From NCBI GenBank assembly GCA_017849585.1, contig JAFIGT010000012.1, forward strand, positions 1-64,000: a DNA stretch of 64,000 nt. Reading direction: 5' to 3'. The notes beneath the pieces are model-generated. The model saw only the letters and a list, made by a program, of their open reading frames with translations, did not search any database and was not told where the DNA came from. This document shows, one piece after another, positions 28,369 through 42,020 of the stretch; position 1 is the stretch's first letter, and each line of letters begins with the position of its first letter. The translations under genes were made by a program, and so were the position numbers. Source of the DNA: Verrucomicrobium sp. (GTDB taxonomy: Bacteria; Verrucomicrobiota; Verrucomicrobiia; Methylacidiphilales; UBA1321).

Positions 28369-28441
28369 GCTCCCATAGCTTAACGGATAAAGCAACGGTC
28401 TTCTAAACCGTAGAGTGTTGGTTCGATTCCAACTGGGAGCG
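28369..28441 (+). tRNA. tRNA-Arg (anticodon TCT)
   Basis: The 5' strand GCTCCCA and the 3' strand TGGGAGC form a 7-bp acceptor stem. The anticodon stem ACGGT/ACCGT holds the loop CTTCTAA, giving anticodon TCT (reads AGA). The T-arm is GTTGG-TTCGATT-CCAAC. CCA is not encoded. The 3' part (28397-28442) is repeated exactly at the right end of the island (41942-41987), so this gene is the integration site and its 3' half was probably replaced by an identical element-borne copy. Confidence 0.95.
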
Positions 28442-28442
28442 C
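28397..28442 (+). repeat. attL, left copy of the 46-bp direct repeat
   Basis: It runs from the 3' base of the 5' anticodon stem strand through the T-arm to just past the acceptor stem. The second copy is at 41942-41987 with no mismatch. The next bases differ on both sides. Its position next to the integrase gene is typical of tRNA-targeted islands. Confidence 0.95.
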
Positions 28443-28488
28443 GCTTATAATAAACGACTTACAAATAAATAGGCATTACAAAATAGTC

Positions 28489-28515
28489 TTTTGCTTTGCA
28501 TTTACTTTGCAAATT
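28489..28515 (+). repeat. Candidate integrase arm-type sites, left end
   Basis: TTTTGCTTTGCA (28489-28500) and CTTTGCAAATT (28505-28515) lie about 50 bases inside attL. Both words recur, overlapping, at 41794-41809 near attR. Paired short repeats at both ends of an element are expected for integrase arm binding. Confidence 0.45.
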
Positions 28516-28530
28516 TGAGACTGTTTTTGC

Positions 28531-29847
28531 ATGGCAAAGCGGCGCAAGGCAAAGCTCAAGGTTCACCGCAAAGAGTTCCCCCGTGTACGGGAAATCATCT
28601 CCAGAGGACAACTCTTCTATTCGGTTGATTGCCGAAAGAAGGGGACTCTGGGCAAGCAGGAGACCTATTCTAACTTGGAGGAAGCTCTCGCCTATGCGGA
28701 GACGGTAGGAAAAGAGCAAAAGACATCCGGCACCGAAAGCCTCGACATCACAGCCAATCTGCGGTTGATGGCGTTAGAGTGCGAAAAGGAATTGTCTGCT
28801 TTCAAAAAGACGATTCGGGATGCCACGACTTATTACGTTGCTCATCTTAAGGAAGACTACGCCAAAAAGAACAGCAAACCTCTTACGGAATGCTTGGATG
28901 AATTTTTGAAAGATAAGGCTGATTCCACAGAAAAAGTTCGTAGCAAGCGGACATTGGACGAACTGAAAGTCCTGTCTAGGCGACTCAAAAACGCATTTCC
29001 GGCATCAAAGGTTGCTCAACTCGATGAAAGCGATATTCGCGCTCTCTTAAAAAAGGAATATTCGGCGCGTACCAAAAAGAACATCATCAACAAGGCGAAT
29101 CAGTTTTTCAGATGGACAGTCAAAAAGGGCTATCGTCTCAAAAATCCTTGCGAGCACATCAATATTCACGTCCCGAATCAGGATGAGATTGTCAAACTGA
29201 GTGCTCAAGAAGCCTTGGATTTAATGCGTAAGTGTGAGTCCGATTTCCCAGAGCTTATTGCGTATTCGGCGGTTTGTTTATTTGGCGGACTGCGCCCAAA
29301 TTCCGAGGCTTTGGGATTAACTTGGGAAAACATCTACCTCAATCAAAAGGTGCCGCAGATTCGTATTTTAGCGTCTACCTCCAAGGTCAAAGAAACCCGC
29401 TTATTTGAAATTGAAGAGAATCTAGTCCAATGGTTGACGTATTATGGTAAAGGGAAAACTGGATTAATTGTCCCCGAGAATTTACGACAACTTACTGAGG
29501 CTTTGAGAATTTCCTTGGGGTATAAATTACAGGACGAAAATGAAAAAGGGCGCGAATGGGTTCCCGATTGCATGCGCCACTCGTACGCTTCCTACTGGCT
29601 GGCGAAACACAAAGACCGATACAAATTGGCTGAATACATGGGGACTTCTTTGACCATGATTAAAAACCACTACAAAAACGTGGTGTCACCGGAAGAATCG
29701 GAAAATTTTTGGGGTATTATCCCTAAGCCGCTTGCTGAAGCTGCGGAGCTACGCAAGAAGAGCGGTAAGCAGTTGGACTCTTCCCTATTATTGACTCGCT
29801 CACGTCGTCGGCAAACTCCTGTGCGAGTTGCGCCCGACGCATCTTGA
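28531..29847 (+). CDS. int: Tyrosine recombinase (island integrase)
   Basis: A 438-residue site-specific recombinase encoded 90 bases from the tRNA. An N-terminal arm-binding part (residues about 1-75) and a SAM-like core-binding domain (about 110-200) precede the catalytic domain. The first catalytic Arg is in LFGGLRPNSEALGL (about residue 254), box II is PDCMRHSYASYWLA (about 347) and the catalytic Tyr is in IKNHYKNVV (about 380). The usual box II His before Arg is Asp here. It should integrate and excise the island at the tRNA 3' half. Its composition is AT-rich like the rest of the island. Confidence 0.92.
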   Translation: MAKRRKAKLKVHRKEFPRVREIISRGQLFYSVDCRKKGTLGKQETYSNLEEALAYAETVGKEQKTSGTESLDITANLRLMALECEKELSAFKKTIRDATTYYVAHLKEDYAKKNSKPLTECLDEFLKDKADSTEKVRSKRTLDELKVLSRRLKNAFPASKVAQLDESDIRALLKKEYSARTKKNIINKANQFFRWTVKKGYRLKNPCEHINIHVPNQDEIVKLSAQEALDLMRKCESDFPELIAYSAVCLFGGLRPNSEALGLTWENIYLNQKVPQIRILASTSKVKETRLFEIEENLVQWLTYYGKGKTGLIVPENLRQLTEALRISLGYKLQDENEKGREWVPDCMRHSYASYWLAKHKDRYKLAEYMGTSLTMIKNHYKNVVSPEESENFWGIIPKPLAEAAELRKKSGKQLDSSLLLTRSRRRQTPVRVAPDAS

Positions 29848-30028
29848 TAAAAAGTTCCATTTTGGACAGCAAGATAAGTTCGGCATGCTCGCTATCCTTT
29901 GTGTCTTGGTAAAAGTCAAAGGAGTTATCCTCGTTAAGATAGAACGCAAGAACGCCATTCGTGAACTCTCCGAAGCGTTTGGCCGCCTCAGAAGCATCAT
30001 CAATCGTCTTGTGTAGTATCTCGCTCAC
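29723..30028 (-). CDS. Small acidic protein overlapping the integrase 3' end
   Basis: A 101-residue reading frame with a GTG start at 30026-30028. Residues 1-85 look like a real soluble alpha/beta protein (SEILHKTIDDASEAAKRFGE, NEDNSFDFYQDTKD), while the last part reads antisense through the integrase end (125-base overlap). It could be a small regulator such as an excisionase-type or antitoxin-like protein, but no motif supports that. If real, its transcript would be antisense to the integrase mRNA. Confidence 0.5.
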   Translation of the reverse strand: MSEILHKTIDDASEAAKRFGEFTNGVLAFYLNEDNSFDFYQDTKDSEHAELILLSKMELFIKMRRAQLAQEFADDVSESIIGKSPTAYRSSCVAPQLQQAA

Positions 30029-30335
30029 AAGCTCGATTGTATCTGATTTTAATTTTATGTCAAGGTAAATCTTTGGGCTGCAATATTTTATGTAAGATAC
30101 TGATTTTCTAGAGCGAAATCCAAATAGATAACTATACAGTTTATTATTTTATTAATTATAAAACTGTCGTTTATTTGTATTTTTTTCGGAAATATTGGAA
30201 ATATAAGCTGAATAAACCCGAATTAAGCAAAAAATAAGGACTATATTCTCAAAGAGAATCAAATAAACCCCTAAAATAAGGTTTTGGCGCTATCGAAAGG
30301 AAATATAGCGCGAAATTATCCCAAGATACCTTTTA
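30029..30335. other. AT-rich gene-free stretch with short repeats
   Basis: About 307 bases of A/T-rich DNA. AATAAACCC occurs twice as a direct repeat (30211-30219 and 30262-30270). Inverted repeats are ACAGTTT/AAACTGT (30136-30142 and 30161-30167), ATTCTC/GAGAAT (30245-30250 and 30254-30259) and GCGCTAT/ATAGCGC (30287-30293 and 30305-30311); the last is placed to end transcription of the next minus-strand gene. No gene seen. Confidence 0.5.
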
Positions 30336-30761
30336 TTAAGGAACGGGATTGCTCAAATCTATTTGAAAACCAGTAGGAAGAGTTTCGCCGTCCCCTGCTC
30401 TAGCCGTAGGCGCAGTAGCCGCTGTCGGTATAGAGTAAATGTCATACCCCATTTCCAACATTATCTTTTCTCTTAAAGGTAAATCATGCCAATTAATGGC
30501 TCCATGCTCTGACTCATATTTCAGGCGCAAAGCTAATTCCTCAGCTTTTGCGCGAGGAGCGCGGCTTAATCCTCGTTCAGCTAGCCGTGCCTTATTACGG
30601 TCATTCAAATTACCCGTAACCTTCTCTTGAGGGGTTGCGCTGGCTGCGGTGGTTACGGTTGCACCTTCAAGCAGGTTCTCTTGTCGCAAGAGACCAAGAA
30701 CCTCACGTAAAGAGTCGGCGTCAGCAATGGTGATATTCAAGGAAACCGTTATATTTTTCAT
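30336..30761 (-). CDS. Hypothetical protein of the island
   Basis: A 141-residue protein starting with ATG at 30759-30761. The N-terminal 35 residues (KNITVSLNITIADADSLREV) have a ferredoxin-like beta-alpha pattern. A middle basic part (NDRNKARLAERGLSRAPRAK) and a helical segment HGAINWHDLPLREKIMLEMG follow. No family recognised; a DNA-binding accessory or antitoxin-like protein is possible. It stands alone between two gene-free stretches. Confidence 0.6.
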   Translation of the reverse strand: MKNITVSLNITIADADSLREVLGLLRQENLLEGATVTTAASATPQEKVTGNLNDRNKARLAERGLSRAPRAKAEELALRLKYESEHGAINWHDLPLREKIMLEMGYDIYSIPTAATAPTARAGDGETLPTGFQIDLSNPVP

Positions 30762-31330
30762 AAATATCCGCTATTTAATTAGCTAAGGAGAGAATATTTC
30801 AGCAAAAATTTCGCTTAATAAGCTTATTTCGAGCAACTTAAATCTATTTTCTGGCTATGTAAATTATAATTTTGGCGCAAAATATAACTCAAGATGCTGG
30901 ATTAGGTATCAACTCATTCAGTAAGACATCAAGAACAAGGAACCATCTCCTTGTCAGGTAGTTCTTTTATTTGAGCGCAAAGGCACGTTTTAGCGGCGCG
31001 GCTCAATAAACTATCAAAGGATACTCTCTTTTCCTTTGTCGCCTTATACGTCGTTTTAGGAATTAAGTCAGAAACTCTGATTTATTGGTATCAGGTATTT
31101 TTAAAAGAAATGCGCCGAATCCATTATTTTGGGTTTTGCGCCTATAAAATAATCAAAAGAAAGATTACTTTTTAAAGAATTAGCCAAAAAGTTTTGTGCG
31201 CTCATATACCACACAATTAAACAACTATTATCTTACATTAAATCTAAGAGGATATATTCATTCATTTGATTTGAGCATAGTTATCCTTAAGCCTTAACAT
31301 ATAATTTATATTGAATTCGGCGTAGCATTA
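30762..31330. other. Gene-free AT-rich stretch with several hairpins
   Basis: No plausible gene on either strand. Hairpins seen: AAGAAC/GTTCTT closing an inner ACAAGG/CCTTGT stem (about 30930-30966), CAAAGGA/TCCTTTG (about 31014-31038), TCAGA/TCTGA (31068-31080), GCGC-GAATCC/GGGTTT-GCGC (about 31111-31141) and TAATC/GATTA (about 31149-31167). CTCAA near 30887 and TTGAG near 30971 could close a multi-branched domain around the first hairpin. This is the left part of a 1.3-kb region that may encode structured RNA. Confidence 0.4.
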
Positions 31331-31332
31331 GT

Positions 31333-31530
31333 CAATTGATTGTTCTTGTTTTCAATTTCCTTCATATAAAAATATTAAGTTAATGTATCGTCTTGGCTTG
31401 GGCGGCCTTATTTATCTAATGATAAAGGTGAGCTTCTTTAAATTAGCCCAAAGCCGCGACGACACATCAGTCGGAGCGCGGGCGAAGATAAATAACAAGA
31501 ACAATATTTAAAAGATGAAGCTCGCCGTTT
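31333..31530. other. Structured region with long-range helix, candidate RNA domain
   Basis: TTGTTCTTGTT (31340-31350) is exactly complementary to AACAAGAACAA (31492-31502). Between them lie GGCTTGGGC (31395-31403)/GCCCAAAGCC (31445-31454), a hairpin CCTT-TTATC-TAAT-GATAA-AGG (31405-31428) and a CG-rich hairpin CCGCG-CGAC/GTCG-CGCGG (31453-31481). GGTGAGCTTC (about 31428-31437) also pairs with GAAGCTCGCC (about 31519-31528), which would form a pseudoknot or alternative fold. GC-rich stems in AT-rich DNA point to selection on RNA structure. Strand not determined. Confidence 0.4.
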
Positions 31531-31644
31531 TAATTTACAAAATTACTTCATTAAACTTATCAAGATTAATATTATTAATATACATTCTTGATTAAAAATA
31601 GTAGCGGCTCGCAGAGACGCGAATTTCAATAAAAGTACATAAGC

Positions 31645-31990
31645 ACAACAGTCCCTAGGAACGCATTTTGCGCTAGGGACTTTGCAAGCCTTGAAATTAC
31701 TTTCAAGGCTACAGGAGCTATCGTAGGCTTAAGGTTTCCAAGGATGGCCTGTGTAGCACTTTCGCGTGCTATCTCCTGCGTTTGTCGCCCCTCATTATGA
31801 GGGTATGTCTACTTGTCTCTTTTAGGGCGACCTTAAGCGAAATTTTGTTATTCCGCTGCTTTGCATTGCGTCTTGCGATTGTCTCCCGACGATTAAACAA
31901 CTATCGCCGATTATGTCCCGCCTTACCTTCATGCAACCTTAATTTCTTGGCTTCGGCTCACAAGCATTATGTGACGAAACCCTTCGTTTT
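31645..31990 (-). ncRNA. Candidate structured noncoding RNA of the island
   Basis: On the minus strand a promoter-like sequence (31997-32025) precedes about 345 bases full of perfect helices: GTCGCCC/GGGCGAC (31784-31790 and 31825-31831) around CCCTCA/TGAGGG; CAGGAG/CTCCTG (31712-31717 and 31773-31778) enclosing TAGCAC/GTGCTA (31754-31759 and 31766-31771) and AGGC/GCCT, a three-way junction; a 10-bp stem (31687-31696 and 31701-31710) with loop GTAA, a GNRA tetraloop only on this strand; and GTCCCTAG-CGC/GCG-CTAGGGAC (31651-31680) near the 3' end. I could not match it to tmRNA, RNase P, 6S, GOLLD, ROOL or another family from memory. A 43-codon TTG-initiated basic frame inside is noted but not called. 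Confidence 0.45.
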
Positions 31991-31996
31991 AAGATG

Positions 31997-32025
31997 TCAT
32001 TATTATTATAAATAGCGGCAGTCAA
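31997..32025 (-). promoter_or_regulatory. Promoter-like sequence for the candidate RNA
   Basis: On the minus strand TTGACT (32025-32020), a 17-base spacer and TAATGA (32002-31997) form a sigma70-like pair. It is upstream of the hairpin-rich stretch and downstream of the 32.1-kb gene. Confidence 0.4.
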
Positions 32026-32067
32026 AAATTCAAAAAAATCATTAAAAATATAATTGCCTCAATTTGC

Positions 32068-32538
32068 TTAACTTTGTTTTGGGACAGGAAGCGGCCATTC
32101 GCCGTAAATATCCTTTATGATGGCAGGGTCTTTAATTGCCTTTTGAAAACTATGCCATGCGATTGGGTCTCGAACTGAATCGGGACAATATTGTGATTGC
32201 ATAGAAGCGGCTCGAACCACTCCACCAAGCGTTCTATCAATAGCCTTCGTCGAATCGTCTCTCGTTAAGCCAAGATTGCAGGTAAGTGAACTAATAATAG
32301 CCCAATAATCGGGTTTGCCTCTCGCTTCATTAAGGATGCTAGAAACTATTTTATCGTACGTCACTCCCGCAGGTAATGAAATCGTTACGCTGAGGTCGTT
32401 ATCATCAAGAAGTTCTTCGGAGGCAGCAAGTAAGTTGGAATCCCATGTAGAGGCTACTTGGCGACTTACTCGGTTTTGATGCAGAATATATATAGCATGC
32501 CGTATACTTCTTAACCATAGTATTAAGTGCTTCACCAT
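32068..32538 (-). CDS. Hypothetical protein downstream of the PvuII-type endonuclease
   Basis: A 156-residue protein with ATG at 32536-32538 and a basic N-terminal helix (MVKHLILWLRSIRHAIYILH). The rest is mixed alpha/beta with no motif I recognise (PDYWAIISSLTCNLGLTRDD, GGVVRAASMQSQYC). It lies 57 bases after the endonuclease on the same strand, so it may be co-transcribed with the controller and endonuclease genes. Whether it belongs to the restriction system is not known. Confidence 0.6.
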   Translation of the reverse strand: MVKHLILWLRSIRHAIYILHQNRVSRQVASTWDSNLLAASEELLDDNDLSVTISLPAGVTYDKIVSSILNEARGKPDYWAIISSLTCNLGLTRDDSTKAIDRTLGGVVRAASMQSQYCPDSVRDPIAWHSFQKAIKDPAIIKDIYGEWPLPVPKQS

Positions 32539-32595
32539 AATACTCTCACCGATTCTATTAAACGGCCAGCCTATTTGAGATAAGAAACTGTATGT

Positions 32596-33150
32596 TTAAC
32601 TATCTGCCTTTTCTGGATTTAATGGAGGAGTTATTGGAAAAATGGGAATTTCATGGACGGCCGCTTTGTAAATAAGAGTGCCATAGCTTTCTACAAATTT
32701 AGTCGGTATCTTGGGATTGTTGATATCTTTTCCTCCGTCAGTATGCCACTTTGTTTCCCATTTTTTGAAAAATGGCTCTTCCAAAACCGAAGGCTCCATA
32801 TAATAGACCGATTGAAGTTCTATTCCTTTATAAAAGCCAAAAAACCATCCGACTTTCCGATATTTAGCTATAATGGTTGGATTCAGATGATGATGGGTAG
32901 TGAAACTCTTAACCAATAAGACATTTGCTGACTTCAACTCATATTCTTTACCATCTTGGTCTTTAGCATCGTTTCCTTCACGGCTACCAAGAACTTTCAA
33001 TCCCGTAATCAAGATAAGTTGAAGAAGTTTCCCTCCATTGTCCTGAAAAATATCTCCGATACCATGTTTAGAAGCTAATTTTTGGTATTCGCGTATACTT
33101 GGGAAAAGTTTTTCCAAAAGTGCTGCATCGGGATGTGGAGTCCGCTTCAT
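32596..33150 (-). CDS. pvuIIR: PvuII-like type II restriction endonuclease
   Basis: A 184-residue homologue of R.PvuII (157 residues, cuts CAGCTG), recognised from shared blocks [47 protein letters not shown] and [12 protein letters not shown]. The catalytic triad corresponds to Asp61, Glu71 and Lys73 (D58, E68 and K70 in PvuII). The DNA-recognition His pair (H84/H85 there) lies in the THHH block and the recognising Asn in DINNPK. It acts as a homodimer leaving blunt ends. About 25 extra C-terminal residues (from IYKAAVHE) are not in PvuII. Its ATG overlaps the stop of the controller gene. Confidence 0.95.
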
Positions 33151-33377
33151 TCGGCGCTCCTGTCACTGAAAAGGATATTTATCGGAACTTTCAACGCTAC
33201 GGCGATACGCTCAATGTTATCGATTGAGATATTACGCTCGCCACGCTCAATGGAACCAATGTAAGTACGGTGCAATTCCGCCAGCTCTGCAAAATCTTCC
33301 TGTGACAACCCTTTCTCTTGGCGAAATAAGCGCACATTTTTCGCAAATGTCTTTCTCAAGGAGCCGAGTTTTGGCAT
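33147..33377 (-). CDS. pvuIIC: Controller (C) protein of the PvuII-type system
   Basis: A 76-residue helix-turn-helix protein of the XRE type: [20 protein letters not shown], then [20 protein letters not shown]. This is the form of restriction-modification controller proteins. C protein binds C-boxes upstream of its own gene, first activating and later repressing the C-R operon, and so delays endonuclease synthesis until the DNA is methylated. It is upstream of and overlaps the endonuclease gene, and is divergent from the methyltransferase, exactly as in PvuII. Confidence 0.92.
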
Positions 33378-33415
33378 GCTCTGAGATTGACCAAAATGAT
33401 GCTCTTATATCTACA

Positions 33416-33426
33416 GACTTTAAGTA
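33416..33426. promoter_or_regulatory. Candidate C-box between controller and methyltransferase genes
   Basis: GACTTTAAGTA fits the C-box form GACT-N3-AGTC except for the last base. It lies 39 bases upstream of the controller start. Nearby ATGCT and AGCAT segments, around 33400 and 33427, form a wider imperfect dyad around it, leaving room for a second site. Confidence 0.5.
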
Positions 33427-33458
33427 GCATTTTAATGTGGCTCTGCTAAACCATATCC

Positions 33459-34436
33459 ATGATTACAACTCCAAGTTACTTTACCCAGAATGGAGCCGCC
33501 TACTTAGGCGACTCAGTCAAATTACTTCAGGAGCTATCTGATTCGACCATTGATTTGGTTGTAACTAGTCCTCCTTTCGCCTTGCAGCGACAGAAGGAAT
33601 ATGGAAACAAAGAGCAAAGTGAATATGTCGAATGGCTGACCGAATTTGCGAGGCTCGTATATGCTAAATTGAAACCGACAGGGAGCTTTGTTTTAGATTT
33701 GGGTGGGGCTTACGAAAAGGGGATACCCGTACGCAGTTTATACAACTTTCGCGTTCTTATTCGTTTTTGCGACGAAGTTGGATTCCGTTTAGCAGAAGAC
33801 TTTTATTGGTTTAATCCGTCTAAGCTACCCAGTCCTATCGAATGGGTTAATAAGCGCAAGCTACGTGCTAAGGATTCAGTGAACACAGTTTGGTGGCTTT
33901 CAAAAAGCGAGTGGCCTAAAGCAAATGTGAGTCAAGTTTTGGCTCCCTACAGTGATAGAATGAAAAAGTTAATAGCTGACCCAAGCGCCTATTATACTCC
34001 CAAAAAACGCCCAAGTGGACACGACATTGGAGAAGGATTTGCTAAGAACAATGGCGGCGCTATTCCTTCGAATCTTTTACAGATTCCAAATAGCGAATCG
34101 AATGGTCAGTATCTTTCCGGTTGCAAATTAGTCGGTGCGCGTCAGCATCCAGCTAGATTTCCAATTAAGTTGCCAGAGTTTTTTATCAAATTCTTAACAG
34201 AACCGGGCGATGTCGTACTCGACATATTCGCAGGGTCTAACACTACAGGTCAGGCTGCTGAACAACTGCAAAGAAAATGGTTAGCCTTTGAAAATGACCG
34301 CGAATATTTAGCTGCTTCAACTTTTCGTTTTTTTGACAAAGATGCCTCTGAGGATGAGTTGAAACACGTTTACCAAGACATTTTGGACTCAAAAAGTATC
34401 GATTTACGTGCAAAGAAAGAATTAAACCTCTTGTAA
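33459..34436 (+). CDS. pvuIIM: PvuII-like N4-cytosine DNA methyltransferase
   Basis: A 325-residue homologue of M.PvuII (336 residues), sharing the catalytic motif IV TSPPFALQRQKEYGNK, then PVRSLYNFRVLIR, FYWFNPSKLPSPIEWVNK, VLAPYSDRMKKLI, RPSGHDIG, HPARFP-KLPEFFIK and the AdoMet-binding motif I DIFAGSNTTG. Motif order (IV before I) marks the beta class. It methylates N4 of the inner cytosine of CAGCTG by analogy, protecting DNA from the endonuclease. It is divergent from C and R, with 81 bases between. Confidence 0.95.
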   Translation: MITTPSYFTQNGAAYLGDSVKLLQELSDSTIDLVVTSPPFALQRQKEYGNKEQSEYVEWLTEFARLVYAKLKPTGSFVLDLGGAYEKGIPVRSLYNFRVLIRFCDEVGFRLAEDFYWFNPSKLPSPIEWVNKRKLRAKDSVNTVWWLSKSEWPKANVSQVLAPYSDRMKKLIADPSAYYTPKKRPSGHDIGEGFAKNNGGAIPSNLLQIPNSESNGQYLSGCKLVGARQHPARFPIKLPEFFIKFLTEPGDVVLDIFAGSNTTGQAAEQLQRKWLAFENDREYLAASTFRFFDKDASEDELKHVYQDILDSKSIDLRAKKELNLL

Positions 34437-34446
34437 GCACGCTATT

Positions 34447-35037
34447 CTAGGATAGGTCAACGGGTGAAACGGGCGCTTTTGGCACTTTAAAATCCAATAA
34501 GGTTTCAAAGTTTACGGTCTTATCAACGTCAGGAGTTCTACGCCTAATTTCAAAAACAAAGACTGTACTTCTAACCTCACCAACAGCGGTTCGGTATTTT
34601 ATCCCAACGTAATTTACTCTCCCATCATTATAGTTTGTTAAAATAAATTGACCTGTTCCGTTATGGTCAATGAAATTGTCTGGTTGCAGCTCAAAATTAC
34701 AACCAGTAGCTCTTGTTTCTAGGATGGCAATTGCGCCGCCCTTGTTTGTGAAGTGTACTTGAGAAATACCTGGGCTAGCATTACCACCTCCCCAAATAAA
34801 TATTGGGCGAGCTTCCTTCTCTGCTTTTTGATTCTGCAAATCTATCGACTTTTGAGCAGATTCCACTTGTTTTGAAATCAATTGATTTGACTCTTGGGCC
34901 GATTCGATTTGTTTTGAAATGAGCTTATTCTGCTCTTGGGCGTCATCACGAAGTTTTTTCGTTAAATAGGTATACCATCCAATCATTCCGAGAGTGCCGA
35001 CGCTAAGAAGAATTTGCAGTTTTTCGTAAAAGGTCAT
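34447..35037 (-). CDS. Membrane-anchored coiled-coil protein, unknown
   Basis: A 196-residue protein. One N-terminal membrane helix (about residues 8-24) leads into a heptad-like coiled coil with a twice-repeated unit (NKLISKQIESAQES and NQLISKQVESAQKS). From residue about 75 it becomes a beta-rich domain (PIFIWGGG, VHFTNKGGAIAILE). This layout occurs in many accessory proteins of mobile elements, but I cannot name a function. It converges with the methyltransferase gene (10 bases apart). Confidence 0.7.
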   Translation of the reverse strand: MTFYEKLQILLSVGTLGMIGWYTYLTKKLRDDAQEQNKLISKQIESAQESNQLISKQVESAQKSIDLQNQKAEKEARPIFIWGGGNASPGISQVHFTNKGGAIAILETRATGCNFELQPDNFIDHNGTGQFILTNYNDGRVNYVGIKYRTAVGEVRSTVFVFEIRRRTPDVDKTVNFETLLDFKVPKAPVSPVDLS

Positions 35038-35156
35038 AGCTATACGACGGTAAGCTGAGATTTTTCTTCAAAAAATTAGCGTTTTCTCATCCTGCTTTGG
35101 TCAGCTTTCTTTTTCACTTGTTATAATGAGGCGCCATCTGAAAAGGTGCCGCCTTT

Positions 35157-36080
35157 TTACTTTCCTGAATAAGTTCCAAGTCCAATCGTTGCGCCGATGC
35201 GAGCAACAAGTTTTTGCTTAAAATCATCCATTGCATTTCTGTTCCACTGGATAAAATTATACTGCTTATTGTCAAAATGAACCTTGTTTAGACTAGTCTC
35301 TTCCACCGTCCAAATAACTTCCTTTCCCAAACCCTTGGCAAATCCAGCTTCATAGTAGACGCCTCCTCGATTTCCGGTAAAATCGGCTATCATAAATTTG
35401 CAGCGACGAATACCAGCAAGAATTTCGTCAATAATTTGGTTATTGTGTGGGTGCTTGTCAATCCGAACGGCTTTATATTTGGTTTCTTGAATGGCTCCTT
35501 TAATAGCGTGTTCATAGATTTCTTCCATCGAAGATTTAAACCACATTGCAACAAACACTTCTTGGCTATCCGTCTTTGAATATTTTATACTCTCAAGGAA
35601 ATCCCATCCCTTCGGCGAAATTAGATAGCTGTTGCCATCTTTTTCAAGATAGGATTTTCCATCAATGAGATAGCCATCAAGTAGATAGATAACCTCAGAA
35701 TAATCTTTACTCCAAGAGGCACTCAACAAATCCCAATCTTCACTTAATGGTACTATCTCACGACTGATTCCGTAATTTATTTTTTTTGCCAAGTATTTAA
35801 GCAGTTTTTCTGCTCTTTCGCCAACTGATGGCGTTGGTATAGTTTTAAAGAATTCAATATTTTCTTTTGTAATATAAAAACCGCTATTTTCAAAAAGATA
35901 GCTGGATACATTCGTGCGTTGTTGCTGAATATATGGGTAACGATGTAAATTTATGCAAACACTCTCATTTATCTTATAGCTTGAGCAGCGACGGCATTTA
36001 ATTTCAAAGAAATTCTTTCCCCTAGGCGATTCGATTTCGATTCCAACTCTTTCACAAATTGGACACTTTTCCATGCTCAT
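35157..36080 (-). CDS. Zinc-ribbon protein with deoxyribosyltransferase/TIR-like domain
   Basis: A 307-residue protein. The N-terminus has a four-Cys zinc ribbon (C6, C9, C29 and C32; KCPICER and IKCRRCSSY). The middle is helical. The C-terminal 120 residues (EVFVAMWF, AVRIDKHPHNNQIIDEI, MIADFTGNRGGVYYEAGFA, GLGKEVIW) match the nucleoside 2-deoxyribosyltransferase-like fold related to TIR and other NAD-cleaving effectors, with the likely catalytic Glu near residue 244 (YYEAG). Such domains are used as nucleotide-depleting effectors in anti-phage systems. Sensing by the ribbon and defence function are inference. It is a single gene. Confidence 0.75.
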   Translation of the reverse strand: MSMEKCPICERVGIEIESPRGKNFFEIKCRRCSSYKINESVCINLHRYPYIQQQRTNVSSYLFENSGFYITKENIEFFKTIPTPSVGERAEKLLKYLAKKINYGISREIVPLSEDWDLLSASWSKDYSEVIYLLDGYLIDGKSYLEKDGNSYLISPKGWDFLESIKYSKTDSQEVFVAMWFKSSMEEIYEHAIKGAIQETKYKAVRIDKHPHNNQIIDEILAGIRRCKFMIADFTGNRGGVYYEAGFAKGLGKEVIWTVEETSLNKVHFDNKQYNFIQWNRNAMDDFKQKLVARIGATIGLGTYSGK

Positions 36081-36116
36081 AATGATTCTATATTTATGCG
36101 AAGACCGCTAAACGGA

Positions 36117-36806
36117 TTAAGTCTGCGTTGTCTTAAGATTTTTCCTGATTTTTGAATGCAAGGTTTTACCTATTCCAGAGACTTTCAAAAGCTCATCGTC
36201 TGTCGCTGTATCAATATCAGAAGCAGTCTTAAACCCAGCGTCAAAAAGATTCTTAGCGGTTTTCATTCCAATGCCCGGAATTGCAGTCAATTCCTTATAA
36301 AAAAATGACCTTGGGAAATCTTCATAATACCTCTTCAGTTTCAACCAAATTTCTTTATTATGCGGAGAACTTTTCGAGAGAATGGATAGCAGCTTCAGTT
36401 TCTCCGAAATGGATTTATCGCTTTCGACAATTTTACGAAAATCCTTGAGAAAGGGAAGGTACTCAGACGCTTTGGTGTAACCAATGTCAGAGGCATAAGT
36501 TTTTTCTTCTTCTTTAGAATCAGGAGCTTTTGCGCCTAACTCAGCCCATGACTTGACGCTATAGAGCCATATTCCATCCGCTTCTGTACCGTAGCTGGGT
36601 GTTTGACTGGGTAAGCCATCAAAGGATTCACCGTGATGTTCCAGAACAACAAGAGGCGTACGTATTTGTAGTGTTGCACTAAAAATAAGTCCTTTAATGA
36701 GGTCTGAATTTCCTATTGCTGTGGCGTTGTCTTTAGATTTAAAGAAAAAATGACGCGATTGCCCTGCCGTATCTCTTTTCCTAAAAATCCAATTTAAAAT
36801 TCCCAT
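36117..36806 (-). CDS. Helix-hairpin-helix protein of the island
   Basis: A 229-residue protein. Residues about 170-225 hold two helix-hairpin-helix units (TAIPGIGMKTAKNLFDAGF and LLKVSGIGKTLHSKIRK), which bind DNA non-specifically. The N-terminal 100 residues (NWIFRKRDTAGQSRHFFFKS) are unassigned. It starts at 36806 and lies 36 bases before the zinc-ribbon gene on the same strand, so the two may be co-transcribed; a DNA-sensing partner is possible but unproven. Confidence 0.7.
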   Translation of the reverse strand: MGILNWIFRKRDTAGQSRHFFFKSKDNATAIGNSDLIKGLIFSATLQIRTPLVVLEHHGESFDGLPSQTPSYGTEADGIWLYSVKSWAELGAKAPDSKEEEKTYASDIGYTKASEYLPFLKDFRKIVESDKSISEKLKLLSILSKSSPHNKEIWLKLKRYYEDFPRSFFYKELTAIPGIGMKTAKNLFDAGFKTASDIDTATDDELLKVSGIGKTLHSKIRKNLKTTQT

Positions 36807-36924
36807 ACGCTAATGCCTTAGCTCGAAGTCTAAGGCATACTGTCATACAAAATAAAGCTCTAGTCTTTTGAGAAATCGTTCAAGCGCGCTTTGAATGCGC
36901 TTCAACTAGTATCTTCAATTGCGA

Positions 36925-37212
36925 CTAATTTCTGCGATGAACTTTGGCTTTTGGCTTATCTGACAAGACAATCTTGGGGCAATTAGGAGAAAAGAGTTCG
37001 TGTAAGGTAATCCCGTATGCCCACGCCAGTCTATCAAGGGTTTTAAGTTGGAGATTGCTTCGCCTTCCAGCTTCGATGTGCTGATAGACCTTGAGCGTAA
37101 AACCTGAAATTTCAGAAAAAGCCTCTTGAGTTAATCCGGCTTTTAGGCGCAATTCACGCAGTCTTTTTATTAGGAAGGTGGATGATGACGGAATGCGTGG
37201 CACGCTCGCCAT
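36925..37212 (-). CDS. XRE-family transcriptional regulator
   Basis: A 95-residue protein with an XRE/Cro helix-turn-helix at residues about 15-70: IKRLRELRLKAGLTQEAFSE, then VYQHIEAGRR and LDRLAWAYGITLHELF. It ends in a basic tail (KPKAKVHRRN). It probably represses island genes; it lies upstream of the HhH and zinc-ribbon genes on the same strand and divergent from the lipoprotein gene. Its composition is AT-rich. Confidence 0.87.
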   Translation of the reverse strand: MASVPRIPSSSTFLIKRLRELRLKAGLTQEAFSEISGFTLKVYQHIEAGRRSNLQLKTLDRLAWAYGITLHELFSPNCPKIVLSDKPKAKVHRRN

Positions 37213-37354
37213 TTTTAAGCGTATTCATGACTCGTAAACCTCCATGCCGTTACACAAGGCTTGCGTTCAAATTTTAACATGATACAAAGGCAATTTATGA
37301 GGGAATATCATTCGATTAGGTTTCCCCGTAGTTAAATTTCATGGGGGATTGAAA

Positions 37355-37798
37355 ATGAGAATCAGTGGTTTGGCGTTGCTCGGAATATTATTGTTTGTGG
37401 CTGCTTGCGCTACTGCCCCGATAGCATCTCAGGCAGAAAAACAAGCCGCAGAATCCTTTATTCCACCAGCAGGAACGGCAAATATTTACCTGATTCGTCG
37501 TGAGGCTTGGGCAGGTGCCGCGATTCTGGTTCAAACAGCCATAGACGGTCAAATGTCCGGTGCTCTTCAAACAGGCAGTTATATTCTTAAGAGCGTTCCG
37601 GCGGGGAGTCATACGATTAGCGTTTTCTCAAACGAAAATCAGGACTCCATTACGATTACAACCGAAGCCAATCAGAATTACTTTTACGATGTGAAAAGTC
37701 GAATGGGTATGGTTTCAGCGCGTTTTACCATTGAACAGATTGCCGAAGCAGACGCAAAAGACGCGGTTCTGAGAAACAAGCGCGTTAAGGGCATGTAG
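37355..37798 (+). CDS. Lipoprotein, DUF2846-like
   Basis: A 147-residue lipoprotein. The ATG at 37355 has GGGGGA six bases upstream; a TTG two codons earlier is the only alternative. Lipobox FVAAC follows a hydrophobic signal. The mature part (NIYLIRREAWAGAAILVQTA, GSYILKSVPAGSHTISVFS) fits the DUF2846-type beta-sandwich. Its function is unknown. It begins a plus-strand run with the two GYF-domain genes, spaced 19 and 3 bases apart. Confidence 0.75.
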   Translation: MRISGLALLGILLFVAACATAPIASQAEKQAAESFIPPAGTANIYLIRREAWAGAAILVQTAIDGQMSGALQTGSYILKSVPAGSHTISVFSNENQDSITITTEANQNYFYDVKSRMGMVSARFTIEQIAEADAKDAVLRNKRVKGM

Positions 37799-37817
37799 GC
37801 ATTCCCTGAGGAATCCT

Positions 37818-38426
37818 GTGAACTACTTCATTGTAACAGAGGATGGGCGGGAAAGATGGTATAGCGCGGCGCAGGTCAAGGCGATGTATTCGGCTGGCAG
37901 TCTCGATGCCCGTACTCCGATTAAGAGTGAGAGAATGGGTTATAGTCTGTCATGGCTTGAACTGGATGCGGACACACGTACCGACATCAATAATGCGGGA
38001 TTACCCTCTCTTGAAGAACAAAAGGAGTTGATATTACCCGTTCAAAAGACGCCCCAAAAGCAGTCTTACAAATCTGGCTGGTCGGACTTACCAGCAGCGC
38101 AACAAGGATTATTGATAGGAGGCTGTCTTTTCGTTTTTTGTTGGATTTTGAGTGCGTTGAATGGAGGCAGGTCATCTTCCGTGATGGCTCAAAACAGCAG
38201 TTGGGATAATTCCGTTCCTAACGTGAAATTGTATCTCAAAGAAACTCGGCTTGACCCAAGTTCATTGGAAATAATTGAAACCTCTTCTGTTCGCAAAAAC
38301 TCAGATGGTTCCTCTTCGGTTGATTGTACGTATCGAGCAAAGAACGTATTTGGCGGCTATGTCGTAGAGAAAAAGACATTTCAGATGGATTCAACGGGAA
38401 AGGTCATTGGAGCCAGAGACCAATAG
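37818..38426 (+). CDS. GYF-like domain membrane protein
   Basis: A 202-residue protein with a GTG start and GAGGA six bases upstream. An N-terminal GYF_2-type domain (FIVTEDGRERWYSAAQVKAM, about residues 3-50) is followed by a membrane helix (about residues 93-112) and an extracytoplasmic domain (LYLKETRLDPSSLEI, SSVDCTYRAKN). The GYF_2 fold binds proline-rich peptides or acts as a membrane adaptor. It is paired with the next gene, which has the same N-terminal domain. Confidence 0.75.
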   Translation: MNYFIVTEDGRERWYSAAQVKAMYSAGSLDARTPIKSERMGYSLSWLELDADTRTDINNAGLPSLEEQKELILPVQKTPQKQSYKSGWSDLPAAQQGLLIGGCLFVFCWILSALNGGRSSSVMAQNSSWDNSVPNVKLYLKETRLDPSSLEIIETSSVRKNSDGSSSVDCTYRAKNVFGGYVVEKKTFQMDSTGKVIGARDQ

Positions 38427-38429
38427 AAA

Positions 38430-38855
38430 ATGAATACCTATTTTCTTATCCTCAATGGGGTGCAAAAGGGCAGATACAGCGCGGCTCAAATCAAAGCGAT
38501 GTACGAGGCTGGGACAGTAACTGCCGATACGCTTTATTGGACAGAGGAATTGTACGAATGGAAGCCCGTTGACCATCTTTTTCAGAAACAGACTGTCGAA
38601 AAGGCTGCGGCTACTCCTCCCCCGTTGGTAACGCCAGCCATTCAATCGAATGATAGGACATTGGCAGAAAGAAACGATTTGATGGCTTGCCCCTCATGCC
38701 GCAAACCCGTAAGCAGAAATGCCGATTCCTGCCCGATATGCGGTCATCCGTTAAAGAGCGGTGGTATCATGGGAAAGCCCGGTTCTGCGGGGCGTGTCCT
38801 GAATGTGGTTTTCCTGATAATCGTTCTGATAGCGATTGTGTATTTCCTGTCCTAG
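38430..38855 (+). CDS. GYF-like domain protein with zinc ribbon and membrane anchor
   Basis: A 141-residue protein starting 3 bases after its neighbour's stop. Residues 3-48 repeat the GYF_2-type domain (YFLILNGVQKGRYSAAQIKA), then comes a four-Cys zinc ribbon (ACPSCRKPV, SCPICGHPL, about residues 88-110) and a C-terminal membrane helix. The two GYF proteins are probably a duplicated pair with divergent tails. No function can be named. Confidence 0.75.
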   Translation: MNTYFLILNGVQKGRYSAAQIKAMYEAGTVTADTLYWTEELYEWKPVDHLFQKQTVEKAAATPPPLVTPAIQSNDRTLAERNDLMACPSCRKPVSRNADSCPICGHPLKSGGIMGKPGSAGRVLNVVFLIIVLIAIVYFLS

Positions 38856-38944
38856 TCGTCCTGATGCTTCTCTTTGTTACAGCCTGTCTGGTGCTGTATT
38901 TCTCCTCAGAGAGTTATTGGGGGTAGCTCTGGCTTGACTCTTGA

Positions 38945-38972
38945 CGTATCACGGTTGAGCATTGACGATACG
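38945..38972. promoter_or_regulatory. Inverted repeat upstream of the nuclease-ATPase pair
   Basis: CGTATC (38945-38950) and GATACG (38967-38972) form a perfect 6-bp inverted repeat with a 16-base spacer; TTGAC occurs three times in and before it (from about 38935). It lies 50 bases before the 39.0-kb gene and could be an operator and promoter for the pair. Confidence 0.35.
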
Positions 38973-39022
38973 GGGGCTTGTCATGAAAGAGCGTAAACTT
39001 GAATAAGTGAGGCACGGGATTT

Positions 39023-39676
39023 ATGGATGCAATTTCTGAATGTAACGATATATCAGAAAAGCTATGGGATGCTTTTCAAAATTCCTTCAAAAAAGCCTTT
39101 GAAAAATGGTCTCCAGAGGAGTTAGGAAGATTTTGGCATACATCCAGTGAAGAGCGCACATCTTATTACAAACATAAGATTTATCCCAAGTTGGCAGAGT
39201 TATTTAGCTTCCATACTGATGGCAGGAAAGTCCAAGTACAGTCTGAATTTCACACATTTGACGCAGTCTTTAGACTAAAAGAGCGTGCGCTAGGAGAGCA
39301 TCCCATTGTGTATATAGAGTCTGAAAATGCCACGAAAGATTCAACGCACGAGATTTCTAAATTCATGTGGATTAATGCGCCGCTAAAGGTGCTGATTACG
39401 TGGGCGCAGTGGGATAGTGAGCTTTATCCAGATAGCCATGAACGTAAAAAGAAAATCAAAAGCAGTTGGCAAGGGACTATTGAACTTCACCGAAAAGCTC
39501 TTGATTCAGTTGGATTAGTGCCTGTGGGTCGAATTGGATTTCTAGTGGGAGAATGTTCTCCCACGGAAGATAGCACCTTACGGTTTTACGCCTTTTCTTA
39601 CGATGAAGCTACGCGCACTTGGACGGATGAAAATATTTTGACCATTGGTTCCGCCTACCTTCCAACGGCATTTTGA
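39023..39676 (+). CDS. Possible PD-(D/E)XK-type protein paired with an ATPase
   Basis: A 217-residue soluble protein. The segment FHTFDAVFRL (Asp near residue 80) followed by HPIVYIESENATKD (Glu near residues 99 and 101) and KFMWINAPLKVLITWAQW has the alpha/beta spacing of a PD-(D/E)XK nuclease-like core, with Glu-Ser-Glu-Asn in place of the usual E-x-K. The Lys may be displaced (KD or KF) or the enzyme may be degenerate. It lies 66 bases before the ATPase gene, same strand. A nuclease or nucleic-acid sensor role is inference. Confidence 0.65.
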   Translation: MDAISECNDISEKLWDAFQNSFKKAFEKWSPEELGRFWHTSSEERTSYYKHKIYPKLAELFSFHTDGRKVQVQSEFHTFDAVFRLKERALGEHPIVYIESENATKDSTHEISKFMWINAPLKVLITWAQWDSELYPDSHERKKKIKSSWQGTIELHRKALDSVGLVPVGRIGFLVGECSPTEDSTLRFYAFSYDEATRTWTDENILTIGSAYLPTAF

Positions 39677-39742
39677 TAGGGAAACAAAAGTGGAATAAAC
39701 CCGTTTCCGTTTTATTCGAATCACCCAAAAAATGGCGAAAAC

Positions 39743-41188
39743 ATGCATATTTCAAAAATTACTCTTCACAATTTCAAAGGCTTCAAAGATGACTGCACTA
39801 TTAAGCTCGATAAGGGCATAAATTTCTTTGTTGGTGACAATAATTGCGGGAAATCATCTATTTTCGAAGCCATTGATTTTATAAGAGCCAAGAAATCCAG
39901 AGATGAGGTCATAACAAAAAATGCAACCGAGAGTGACTACGTATCTGTAGAAATTGAGCTTACAGGCGACAGGTTAGAGGCATTACTTGAAACAGATTCA
40001 CTAAAAAAATATAAAGATTATCTGATAGATAATTCTGGAGTGAAAACGCTACGCATAAAGCGTTCGAGCAAGGACGAAAATATCACGCAGGGTAATAAAC
40101 CCAAGGCGTTATCAATTGCAAATGTTAGAGTTTTCAATGAAAAGTCGAATCAGTTTGAAAATCCAACTGGGGTTGATAACACAATCACGGCATTGTTTGA
40201 TGCACAATTTGTTTGGGCAGATACAAATTCTGGAGATATAGCGGATTTCCAGAAGACCAAGCTTTGCGGGAAACTCATTACTGCCATCACTAAGGATTTC
40301 GTTAAATCTGACACTTGGAAAAACTTCCAGCAATCACATGAAGCAACTTTTGGCGAAGGTGAAAACAGTTTGGCGGCAGTATTGAAGCCTATAGAGATAA
40401 AATTGCGAGATATACTAGTTGAACAATATGGAGAAACAGAAGTTCGCTTTACCTTCACGCTCCCAGAAATTGAAAGCTTTTTTAAGACCGGAAACATCTC
40501 GTTGTCTGAAAACGGAATTGAAACAAGCAGTGCTGAAAAAGGAACTGGTATGCAAAGGGCGTTAGCTCTTTCGCTTATTCAGGTATATGCTGATGTTTCC
40601 TCAAGTGGTGACGATTCTAAGCCCATTTTGTTTTTCATTGACGAGCCAGAAACATTTCTGCATCCGCAGGCACAAAACAAACTTCTTAATGCCCTAGAAA
40701 AACTATCTACAAAATCACAAGTGGTTATCATCACCCATTCGCCATATCTTTTGAAAAAGTACAAAAAAGATACACATTCGATGAATGTTTTTTCAAAGAT
40801 TAAAGAAAGCGGTCAGAATAAGGTTGCTCTAGGCAAAGAATTTGACCTGTTCGGTAACTCAAGTCCGAGTTGGGGTGAAATAAACTACTATGCTTTCGGC
40901 GTAAATTCAGAAGAGTTTCATAATGAACTTTACGGATTTATTCAGGCGAAGTTAGTCGAAACAGACGATAAGTTTGAAAAACAAAAACACTTTGATTTGC
41001 ATTTAGCGTCAAACGGCTTTACGCAAGATAAAGATTGGAGCAGAGGTTCCATGCGAATGAAGCACACCTTGGCAACATATATTAGAAACTTCATCCATCA
41101 CCCTGAAAACACGGAAAATAGCAAGTATTCGGAAAACGAATTAGCTGAATCAACTCAAAAATTGATTGTCCTATTAAAGGCAATGTAA
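39743..41188 (+). CDS. OLD-like AAA ATPase with C-terminal HEPN-like motif
   Basis: A 481-residue SMC-like ATPase. Walker A is GDNNCGKSS (residues 31-39), the ABC-type signature region is EKGTGMQRALALSL (about 264-277), Walker B is ILFFIDEPETFLHP (about 293-306) and the switch His is in VVIITHSPYLL. There is no TOPRIM domain as in OLD nucleases. The C-terminal helical part (about residues 345-481) contains RNFIHH at about 448-453, the R-N-X3-H form of the HEPN ribonuclease motif. It likely senses phage DNA or RNA and activates RNA cleavage, alone or with the upstream gene. Function is inference. Confidence 0.75.
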   Translation: MHISKITLHNFKGFKDDCTIKLDKGINFFVGDNNCGKSSIFEAIDFIRAKKSRDEVITKNATESDYVSVEIELTGDRLEALLETDSLKKYKDYLIDNSGVKTLRIKRSSKDENITQGNKPKALSIANVRVFNEKSNQFENPTGVDNTITALFDAQFVWADTNSGDIADFQKTKLCGKLITAITKDFVKSDTWKNFQQSHEATFGEGENSLAAVLKPIEIKLRDILVEQYGETEVRFTFTLPEIESFFKTGNISLSENGIETSSAEKGTGMQRALALSLIQVYADVSSSGDDSKPILFFIDEPETFLHPQAQNKLLNALEKLSTKSQVVIITHSPYLLKKYKKDTHSMNVFSKIKESGQNKVALGKEFDLFGNSSPSWGEINYYAFGVNSEEFHNELYGFIQAKLVETDDKFEKQKHFDLHLASNGFTQDKDWSRGSMRMKHTLATYIRNFIHHPENTENSKYSENELAESTQKLIVLLKAM

Positions 41189-41553
41189 CCATAAGGTTAA
41201 CATCAGCTTTTTAATGTCTAGCTATTTACAAAATTCCCAGCTGTAACAGCGGCTTTTCACGGATGCGTGATATGGCTAACGCTAATAGGAGAACATATCT
41301 AAGATGGATATATGTGCAAAGGAATCCGGTGAAAAACTCCGGTACTTATAAGCGCGTCCCCTCTGGTCGAAATTCTCATGTAAGCCGATTTTTGATTTGG
41401 AAGATTGGAGGGAGCGCCTTTCTTTTAATGCAAATTTAAATGTCAAGCAATATTTTAAATAAAATTGATTTTTCTTTGCCGTTTTATCAATTGCTCGAAA
41501 TTCGATGACTGTTGCCGACTTGGTTTGATGAATACTTTGACTATCCTGAATCT
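41189..41553. other. Gene-free stretch between ATPase and right island end
   Basis: About 365 bases without a good gene. Its middle (41235-41400) is the structured stretch described separately; the rest is AT-rich DNA without clear features. Confidence 0.5.
41235..41400 (+). ncRNA. Candidate structured RNA, partly cobalamin-riboswitch-like
   Basis: This non-coding stretch has hairpins GCTG/CAGC (41240-41250), TCACG-GATG-CGTGA (41257-41270), ACATATC/GATATATGT (41293-41315) and CCGG/CCGG (41326-41342). The stretch 41318-41342, with AAAGGAATCCGGTGAAAA and a closing CTCCGG, resembles the P5-P6 core of cobalamin riboswitches, and AAGCCGA near 41383 resembles a 3' element. The CCCGC and GCCACUG boxes are missing, so a true riboswitch is doubtful. 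A CAGCTG (PvuII) site lies at 41238-41243. Confidence 0.35.
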
Positions 41554-41733
41554 ATGACAAAGCCTTCTCGCAAGCCTGCGACGGTTTTACAGGCGTTTGA
41601 CTGGTCAAAGAGCGCGGCGTTACGGCGCGATAAAAGTAAGATGCTGATGATTAGCGCGGCGCAATCTGCGAAGCTGCTTAACGAAAATCAGGGCATGCCT
41701 TTGAAGTCTATTCAAAGGAAGCGCAAGGCTTAA
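41554..41733 (+). CDS. Small basic protein near attR
   Basis: A possible 59-residue basic protein starting MTKPSRKPATVLQAFDWSKS; an alternative TTG start 14 codons upstream exists. The sequence SAALRRDKSKMLMISAAQSA and a Lys/Arg-rich end suggest nucleic-acid binding, for example an excisionase-sized protein, but no motif confirms it. The next 208 bases to attR hold no gene. Confidence 0.4.
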   Translation: MTKPSRKPATVLQAFDWSKSAALRRDKSKMLMISAAQSAKLLNENQGMPLKSIQRKRKA

Positions 41734-41793
41734 GTTTTGCGGTAAAAATGGCTCATTCTAAGATGGAGTTTCGCGCCTTTTTTCCGCTCTCAT

Positions 41794-41809
41794 TTTTGCT
41801 TTGCAAATT
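41794..41809 (+). repeat. Candidate integrase arm-type site, right end
   Basis: TTTTGCTTTGCA (41794-41805), overlapping CTTTGCAAATT (41799-41809), matches two words at 28489-28515. It lies about 130 bases inside attR. Confidence 0.45.
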
Positions 41810-41932
41810 CATCCCAAAAAATGTTCAATTTTGACCGATTTGCAATGCAATGGGATGTAAAGTTGGATTTCTTTAAATTACGCAACTACTTAATGAAAAG
41901 ATAATTATAAAATTTTGTAAAAATAGAAAAAT

Positions 41933-41987
41933 GCTCCCCAAGGTCTTCTAAACCGTAGAGTGTTGGTTCGATTCCAACTGGGAGCGC
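41933..41987 (+). repeat. attR with a minimal tRNA-like fold
   Basis: The 46-bp copy of the tRNA-Arg 3' half lies at 41942-41987. The bases just before it, GCTCCCC at 41933-41939, are complementary at six of seven positions to the acceptor 3' strand TGGGAGC in the repeat. Together they could fold as a tRNA without a D-arm (acceptor, anticodon and T stems). GCTCCCC comes from the island side, so the element's own attachment site may carry it. A functional tRNA is unlikely. Confidence 0.85.
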
Positions 41988-42020
41988 TTTTGTATGCATT
42001 CCCCTTGAGGGGCCGAACTT

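Follow-up and report, generated by a model that had tools for sequence, protein, structure and literature searches.

A candidate defence protein combining an OLD-type ABC ATPase with a HEPN-like domain on a tRNA-Arg island of Verrucomicrobium sp.

The tRNA-Arg island and its cargo

The window analysed here is the whole stretch of 64,000 nucleotides at positions 1 to 64,000 of contig JAFIGT010000012.1 (Verrucomicrobium sp., assembly GCA_017849585.1), and it contains an integrated island of 13.6 kb (28369-41994) at a tRNA-Arg gene, with a tyrosine-type integrase. The features on which the present analysis depends are the following:

28369-28442: tRNA-Arg, the integration site
28397..28449, + strand: left att copy, beginning inside the tRNA-Arg; first 46 bp identical to the right copy
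28531..29847, + strand: tyrosine-type integrase beside the tRNA (PF00589, E=3.4e-5, below the curated cut-off)
32596-33150, - strand: PvuII-type restriction enzyme (1e-62)
33459-34436, + strand: DNA methyltransferase (2e-173), divergent to the PvuII-type restriction gene
39023..39676, + strand: upstream gene 1, 217 aa, an orphan, probably coding, outside any conserved module
39743..41188, + strand: ABC-HEPN candidate protein, 481 aa, with an OLD/AAA_15-type ABC ATPase (residues 1-~350) and a C-terminal HEPN-like domain (375-481)
39833..39862, + strand: Walker A region (codons 31-40, GDNNCGKSSI), with K37 unchanged throughout the alignments
40631..40651, + strand: Walker B FFIDEPE (codons 297-303), whose E301 and E303 do not vary across the 19 aligned rows
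40865..41185, + strand: C-terminal domain, residues 375-481, with helices, a beta hairpin, the R448 helix ending just before H453, and a last helix
41084..41101, + strand: RNFIHH motif, R448-H453 (R+5=H)
41942..41994, + strand: right att copy; the identical 46 bp are 41942-41987; island end about 750 bp past the ATPase

The flanks have a G+C content of 0.585 on the left and 0.567 on the right, compared with 0.405 for 28369-37300 and 0.376 for the ATPase gene, which is the last open reading frame of at least 100 aa before the right att copy. The ATPase gene is cargo of a tRNA-Arg island that also carries a PvuII-type restriction-modification (R-M) system. No hsd family was found among the scanned island genes, and the island copy lies outside any R-M operon; an hsdR-like gene is present on another contig of the same genome. 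Elsewhere on the island, the gene at 35157-36080 (- strand) gave a weak nucleoside deoxyribosyltransferase match (1e-5, below the cut-off) and matched a PADLOC TIR-effector model (1.4e-8), and its product is a possible nucleotide-consuming defence effector. The region upstream of gene 1 (37349-38855) encodes a DUF2846 protein, an unmatched 202-aa protein and a GYF_2/zinc-ribbon protein.

The ATPase head and the C-terminal domain

The original prediction had described two consecutive genes, of which the second would encode an OLD-like ABC ATPase devoid of TOPRIM, in a system not obviously of a named type, and these points were all borne out: the reading frames of 217 and 481 aa, both on the plus strand, are separated by a gap of 66 bp, and the product of the second is, as judged from its sequence, an OLD/AAA_15-type ABC ATPase. 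Pfam AAA_15 covers residues 1-336 (E=1.7e-34), and the PADLOC model Old matches with E=3e-56 over model positions 2-345 of 578 only, the match ending at residue 355. The PADLOC models AriA (4e-35) and GajA (8e-24) match as well, while a Pfam scan found no TOPRIM family at E<=1. Labels of known systems were rejected, since the PADLOC and NCBIfam matches cover the shared ATPase core only, and the protein fits no single named system. Likewise, a fold search with the full-length protein retrieved SMC, Rad50, retron Eco8 and PtuA-type heads, and left the C-terminus without a specific match.

The HEPN-type motif R-N-x3-H which had been proposed at the C-terminus is present with the residue numbering originally given (R448, N449, H452 and H453). 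A pattern of the form R[NDH]x3H occurs somewhere in 4.3% of shuffles of the protein through composition alone, so a single copy of the motif is weak evidence; relatives were therefore gathered, and conservation across the family became decisive. In a genome scan of 80 loci, seeded on Walker A and QV.I.THS and making no use of the motif, R448 and H453 were kept in 21 of the 21 relatives whose alignment spans the motif, the other 59 loci having alignments that stop short of it. All 21 also share the HEPN feature Rx4-6H with a polar residue after the arginine (R448-N449-x3-H453 in the island protein): position +1 is N, H or D and position +4 is H or D, with +2 and +4 variable. Both residues are invariant in the 19 rows of a further alignment (A2) and in the 29 rows of the domain alignment (A3); seven of these 29 rows stem from a scan of viral sequences in which the motif was one of two seeds, and they are counted apart as not independent. 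The complete set of invariant residues in the 29-row alignment is E, A, H, E, L, R, H, N, L, S. Besides, R448 and H453 are both retained in four plasmid relatives with at least 80% query coverage, from L. helveticus, W. hellenica, K. quasipneumoniae and a frame-broken copy from L. curvatus.

The structure predicted by AlphaFold2 for residues 375-481 alone (29 sequences; pLDDT 96.2, pTM 0.86) has the arrangement of HEPN domains, namely a helical bundle whose next-to-last helix carries R448 and stops just short of H453, together with an extra beta hairpin. With this model as query, Foldseek gave no PDB match at E<1 and, among viral models (BFVD), no match at E<0.1. When the best Foldseek chains (703 in total) were aligned with VIA-align, the top match was the HEPN domain of Csx1-Crn2 (8y7g; Z 3.8, 84 residues aligned, 3.5 A, model 1-107 on residues 323-433), with a second structure of this protein, 8y7f, at Z 2.9. 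A Z of 3.8 is within the unspecific range of VIA-align, where an unrelated chain scores Z 3.2, and the list beyond Csx1-Crn2 consists of unrelated proteins. Counting from either end of the aligned range, R448 and H453 fall within about 1-3 residues of R397 and H402, with the same five-residue spacing; the part of PMC7293037 used here describes these as the active site of the Csx1-Crn2 HEPN RNase, inactive as H402A.

Profile comparisons did not confirm a HEPN assignment. In Pfam, HEPN_Apea reached E=0.018 to 0.15, below the cut-off, in one of the 29 members only; hhalign of the domain against HepT alignments gave a probability of at most 0.23% (the alignments being small); and a PDB profile search together with a PADLOC scan of the 29 members yielded no significant HEPN match. 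Csx1_HEPN had no example in 194 genomes, and Pfam, NCBIfam and PADLOC hold no model that matches the effector domain significantly. That neither sequence comparison nor Foldseek linked the domain significantly to a catalytic HEPN family is what would be seen if the C-terminal region were a non-catalytic HEPN-like or unrelated bundle used for nucleic-acid binding or dimerisation, in a protein acting as an ATPase sensor or DNA-repair-like factor. We consider this rather unlikely, because R and the +5 H are invariant next to variable +2 and +4 positions, which is the pattern expected of catalytic residues, and because the residue after the arginine is polar (N, H or D), as the corresponding part of Anantharaman et al. 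(2013; PMC3710099) describes for other HEPN RNases. The HEPN-type motif of the original prediction is supported as part of a conserved domain; this C-terminal domain is probably HEPN, and a ribonuclease output is our best guess from it.

Relatives of the ATPase and their neighbours

The closest relative of the ATPase (64% identity) is encoded on a contig classed as viral (L112), within a type I R-M operon (L112:4415-13013). It begins 5 bp after hsdM (NCBIfam, 7e-226) and overlaps hsdS by 4 bp, with hsdR (2e-169) following; a DUF2130 gene comes after hsdR. A distant relative from the same class as the source genome (L215) starts 4 bp after the S subunit of another type I operon. Downstream of the L036 relative come genes for a BsoBI-type restriction enzyme (4e-137) and for a DNA methylase, the L040 relative lies downstream of type III Mod and Res, and in Actinobacillus genomosp. 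2 (L029:3639-10940) a type I-C cas operon has the gene inserted after Cas3 and ahead of Cas5c-Cas8c-Cas7. At E<=1e-40 the protein of this last locus matched one of the 369 genomes of its class, namely its own. Further copies are preceded by MT-A70 (L046), by TnsD/TniQ of a Tn7-like element (L039), or directly by a phage-type integrase (L113, L114, L116 and the E. coli locus L109; two of the four integrase matches are just below the Pfam cut-off). These neighbourhoods were chosen by eye (19 loci, then 7) and serve as examples, not as frequencies, the association with R-M and CRISPR-Cas being one without a control. The occurrence of relatives in unrelated antivirus clusters suggests a portable last-resort defence.

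When the Klebsiella relative served as blastn query, 10 of 5426 E. coli genomes matched, none over more than 80% of the query. At three of these loci (L109-L111) the gene is found next to rcnR, directly after an integrase, whose gene is frameshifted in L110, and ahead of genes of prophage or satellite type. APECO1_4465 was considered as a member of the family and set aside, as APEC O1 is not among the 10 E. coli matches listed. Those family members whose annotation was inspected were named 'AAA family ATPase', 'ATP-binding protein' or 'ATP-dependent nuclease', and nothing more specific.

The same neighbourhoods bear on gene 1, which had been read as a possible nuclease forming a two-gene module with the ATPase. 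Gene 1 is probably coding, given its codon score (+0.11 in frame, the other five frames being negative). The string I-E-S-E-N, taken as part of a PD-(D/E)XK-like segment, is indeed present, and the fold itself found no support in Pfam, NCBIfam, PADLOC or PDB sequences. There was no match at E<=1 to PADLOC and NCBIfam models, and the sole lead is phrog_36988 (E=0.003), of unknown function; a search for this family in 145 genomes gave no match, as did its control, and hence carries little weight. No convincing relative of gene 1 emerged from plasmids (E 1e-5 and E 5), phages or viral contigs, nor from 12 genomes of the family and 387 of the phylum.

A dedicated partnership of gene 1, as a possible nuclease or regulator, with the ATPase, of the kind known from PtuAB, Gabija and PARIS, would account for their adjacency at the island end, the shared strand, the 66-bp gap and the lack of any terminator-like or promoter-like site found between them. 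We hold it to be improbable, since no relative of the ATPase carries gene 1: tblastn gave best E values of 0.11 over 109 loci and 0.19 over 189 loci, five genomes or records of ATPase relatives gave an unconvincing best E of 0.138, and the 64% relative has hsdM directly upstream instead. Other relatives are preceded by cas3, hsdS or an integrase, their neighbours differing widely, and the want of convincing gene 1 relatives in plasmids, phages, viral contigs and the 387 genomes points the same way. The two-gene module was therefore abandoned: as far as these comparisons of sequence reach, the ATPase is a single-gene family, and gene 1 most likely belongs to the island cargo in its own right.

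Proposed action and comparison with known systems

Fusions of ABC ATPases with HEPN domains have been described since 2013 (Anantharaman et al., 2013; PMC3710099), and Pfam, NCBIfam and PADLOC lack a model for the effector domain of the OLD-headed version. Beyond that paper, a literature search by ABC-HEPN naming returned no further one, no experimental work on the family was found among titles and abstract starts, and the available portions of PMC12839542, PMC10853773, PMC9122126, PMC8649781, PMC10952713 and PMC13092281 do not describe an OLD-headed ABC-HEPN protein. The nearest described group is that of ERFG_01251, for which the pertinent section of the 2013 paper reports a classical HEPN domain and sporadic CRISPR-Cas neighbourhoods in Neisseria and Kingella. 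It shares with the island protein an N-terminal ABC ATPase and a C-terminal HEPN domain, and with the Actinobacillus relative the CRISPR-Cas setting, whereas insertion in type I, II and III R-M loci is not stated in that section. Compared by this description alone, the ERFG_01251 group may be the same family as the OLD-headed ATPase.

RloC is a stand-alone ABC-HEPN protein, as the candidate would be, in which the ATPase is thought to restrain the RNase. It bears a Rad50-like zinc hook (CxxC) between the ATPase halves; the island protein, in contrast, has no CxxC motif in any of its 481 residues. PrrC, from the EcoprrI type I R-M locus, resembles the candidate by description in joining an ABC ATPase to an RNase domain with an R...H active site, and the L112 and L215 relatives are likewise placed within hsd operons; however, the protein studied here has an OLD/AAA_15-type head and the island copy has no hsd genes alongside. 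OLD, GajA of Gabija and AriA of PARIS share the OLD-family ABC ATPase core, but the island ATPase comes without TOPRIM and without a helicase or DUF4435 partner, and carries the HEPN-like domain instead. The dedicated partners of PARIS (AriB), Septu (PtuB) and Gabija (GajB) are lacking as well, gene 1 having matched none of the models scanned. For the C-terminal domain the best, if weak, fold match is Csx1 of Csx1-Crn2, which also has the R+5=H spacing; the gating of Csx1, however, depends on a CARF domain and cyclic tetra-adenylate, where the candidate has an ABC ATPase.

The reading that we favour, with moderate confidence, is that 39743-41188 encodes a single-protein abortive defence factor of the ABC-ATPase/HEPN type, a guard resembling PrrC and RloC in which the ATPase would restrain a suicidal RNase. 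It builds on the gene and its domain architecture, the invariant R/H pair, the predicted fold, the mobile location and the relatives in R-M and CRISPR-Cas operons. The sensing and release envisaged here follow the analogy with PrrC and RloC, in which, according to the part of the 2013 paper dealing with them, the C-terminal HEPN RNase is under the control of the ABC domain, and inhibition of the type I R-M partner releases PrrC (Anantharaman et al., 2013; PMC3710099). The OLD-like ATPase half would serve as both sensor and lock, and the HEPN-like domain as an endoRNase that needs no metal and has R448 and H453 as active-site residues, working, if HEPN biology is a guide, as a dimer. Infection, the inhibition of a first-line defence or a disturbance of the DNA of that defence could be the trigger; an ATP-dependent rearrangement of the ATPase would then set the RNase free, which would cut cellular RNA, most likely tRNA, so that translation stops and the infection is aborted. 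The presence of relatives inside hsd and cas operons is the placement that a guard predicts.

HEPN domains are also common as toxins of toxin-antitoxin systems, as the respective part of PMC3710099 indicates, and the small adjacent gene and the mobile element setting would suit not antiphage defence but an addiction or maintenance function for the island, with gene 1 supplying the antitoxin. We regard this as very improbable, as relatives lie inside R-M and cas operons and have no constant partner, so that only the ATPase half itself could act as the antitoxin.

If the reading as an abortive guard is right, an uncharacterised family of ATP-gated RNases would be added to the antiphage repertoire. 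The idea of a guard that avenges an inhibited defence, argued so far from PrrC and PARIS, would become directly testable in a single protein through the relatives within type I R-M and type I-C cas operons. More tentatively, and as a possibility that we put forward with low confidence, OLD-headed ABC-HEPN proteins may be a portable guard for type I, II and III R-M systems, type I-C CRISPR-Cas, integrative elements and prophages, killing or arresting the cell once the first line is inhibited. The guard role of PrrC would then be one case of a general plug-in, and the island copy would guard the PvuII-type R-M system or act alone.

A minor observation concerns a divergent ABC-HEPN relative, which is adjoined by a toxin-antitoxin-like pair (L054:1424-2132, - strand) made up of a HEPN gene (PF05168, 1e-12) and a gene resembling a nucleotidyltransferase by eye.
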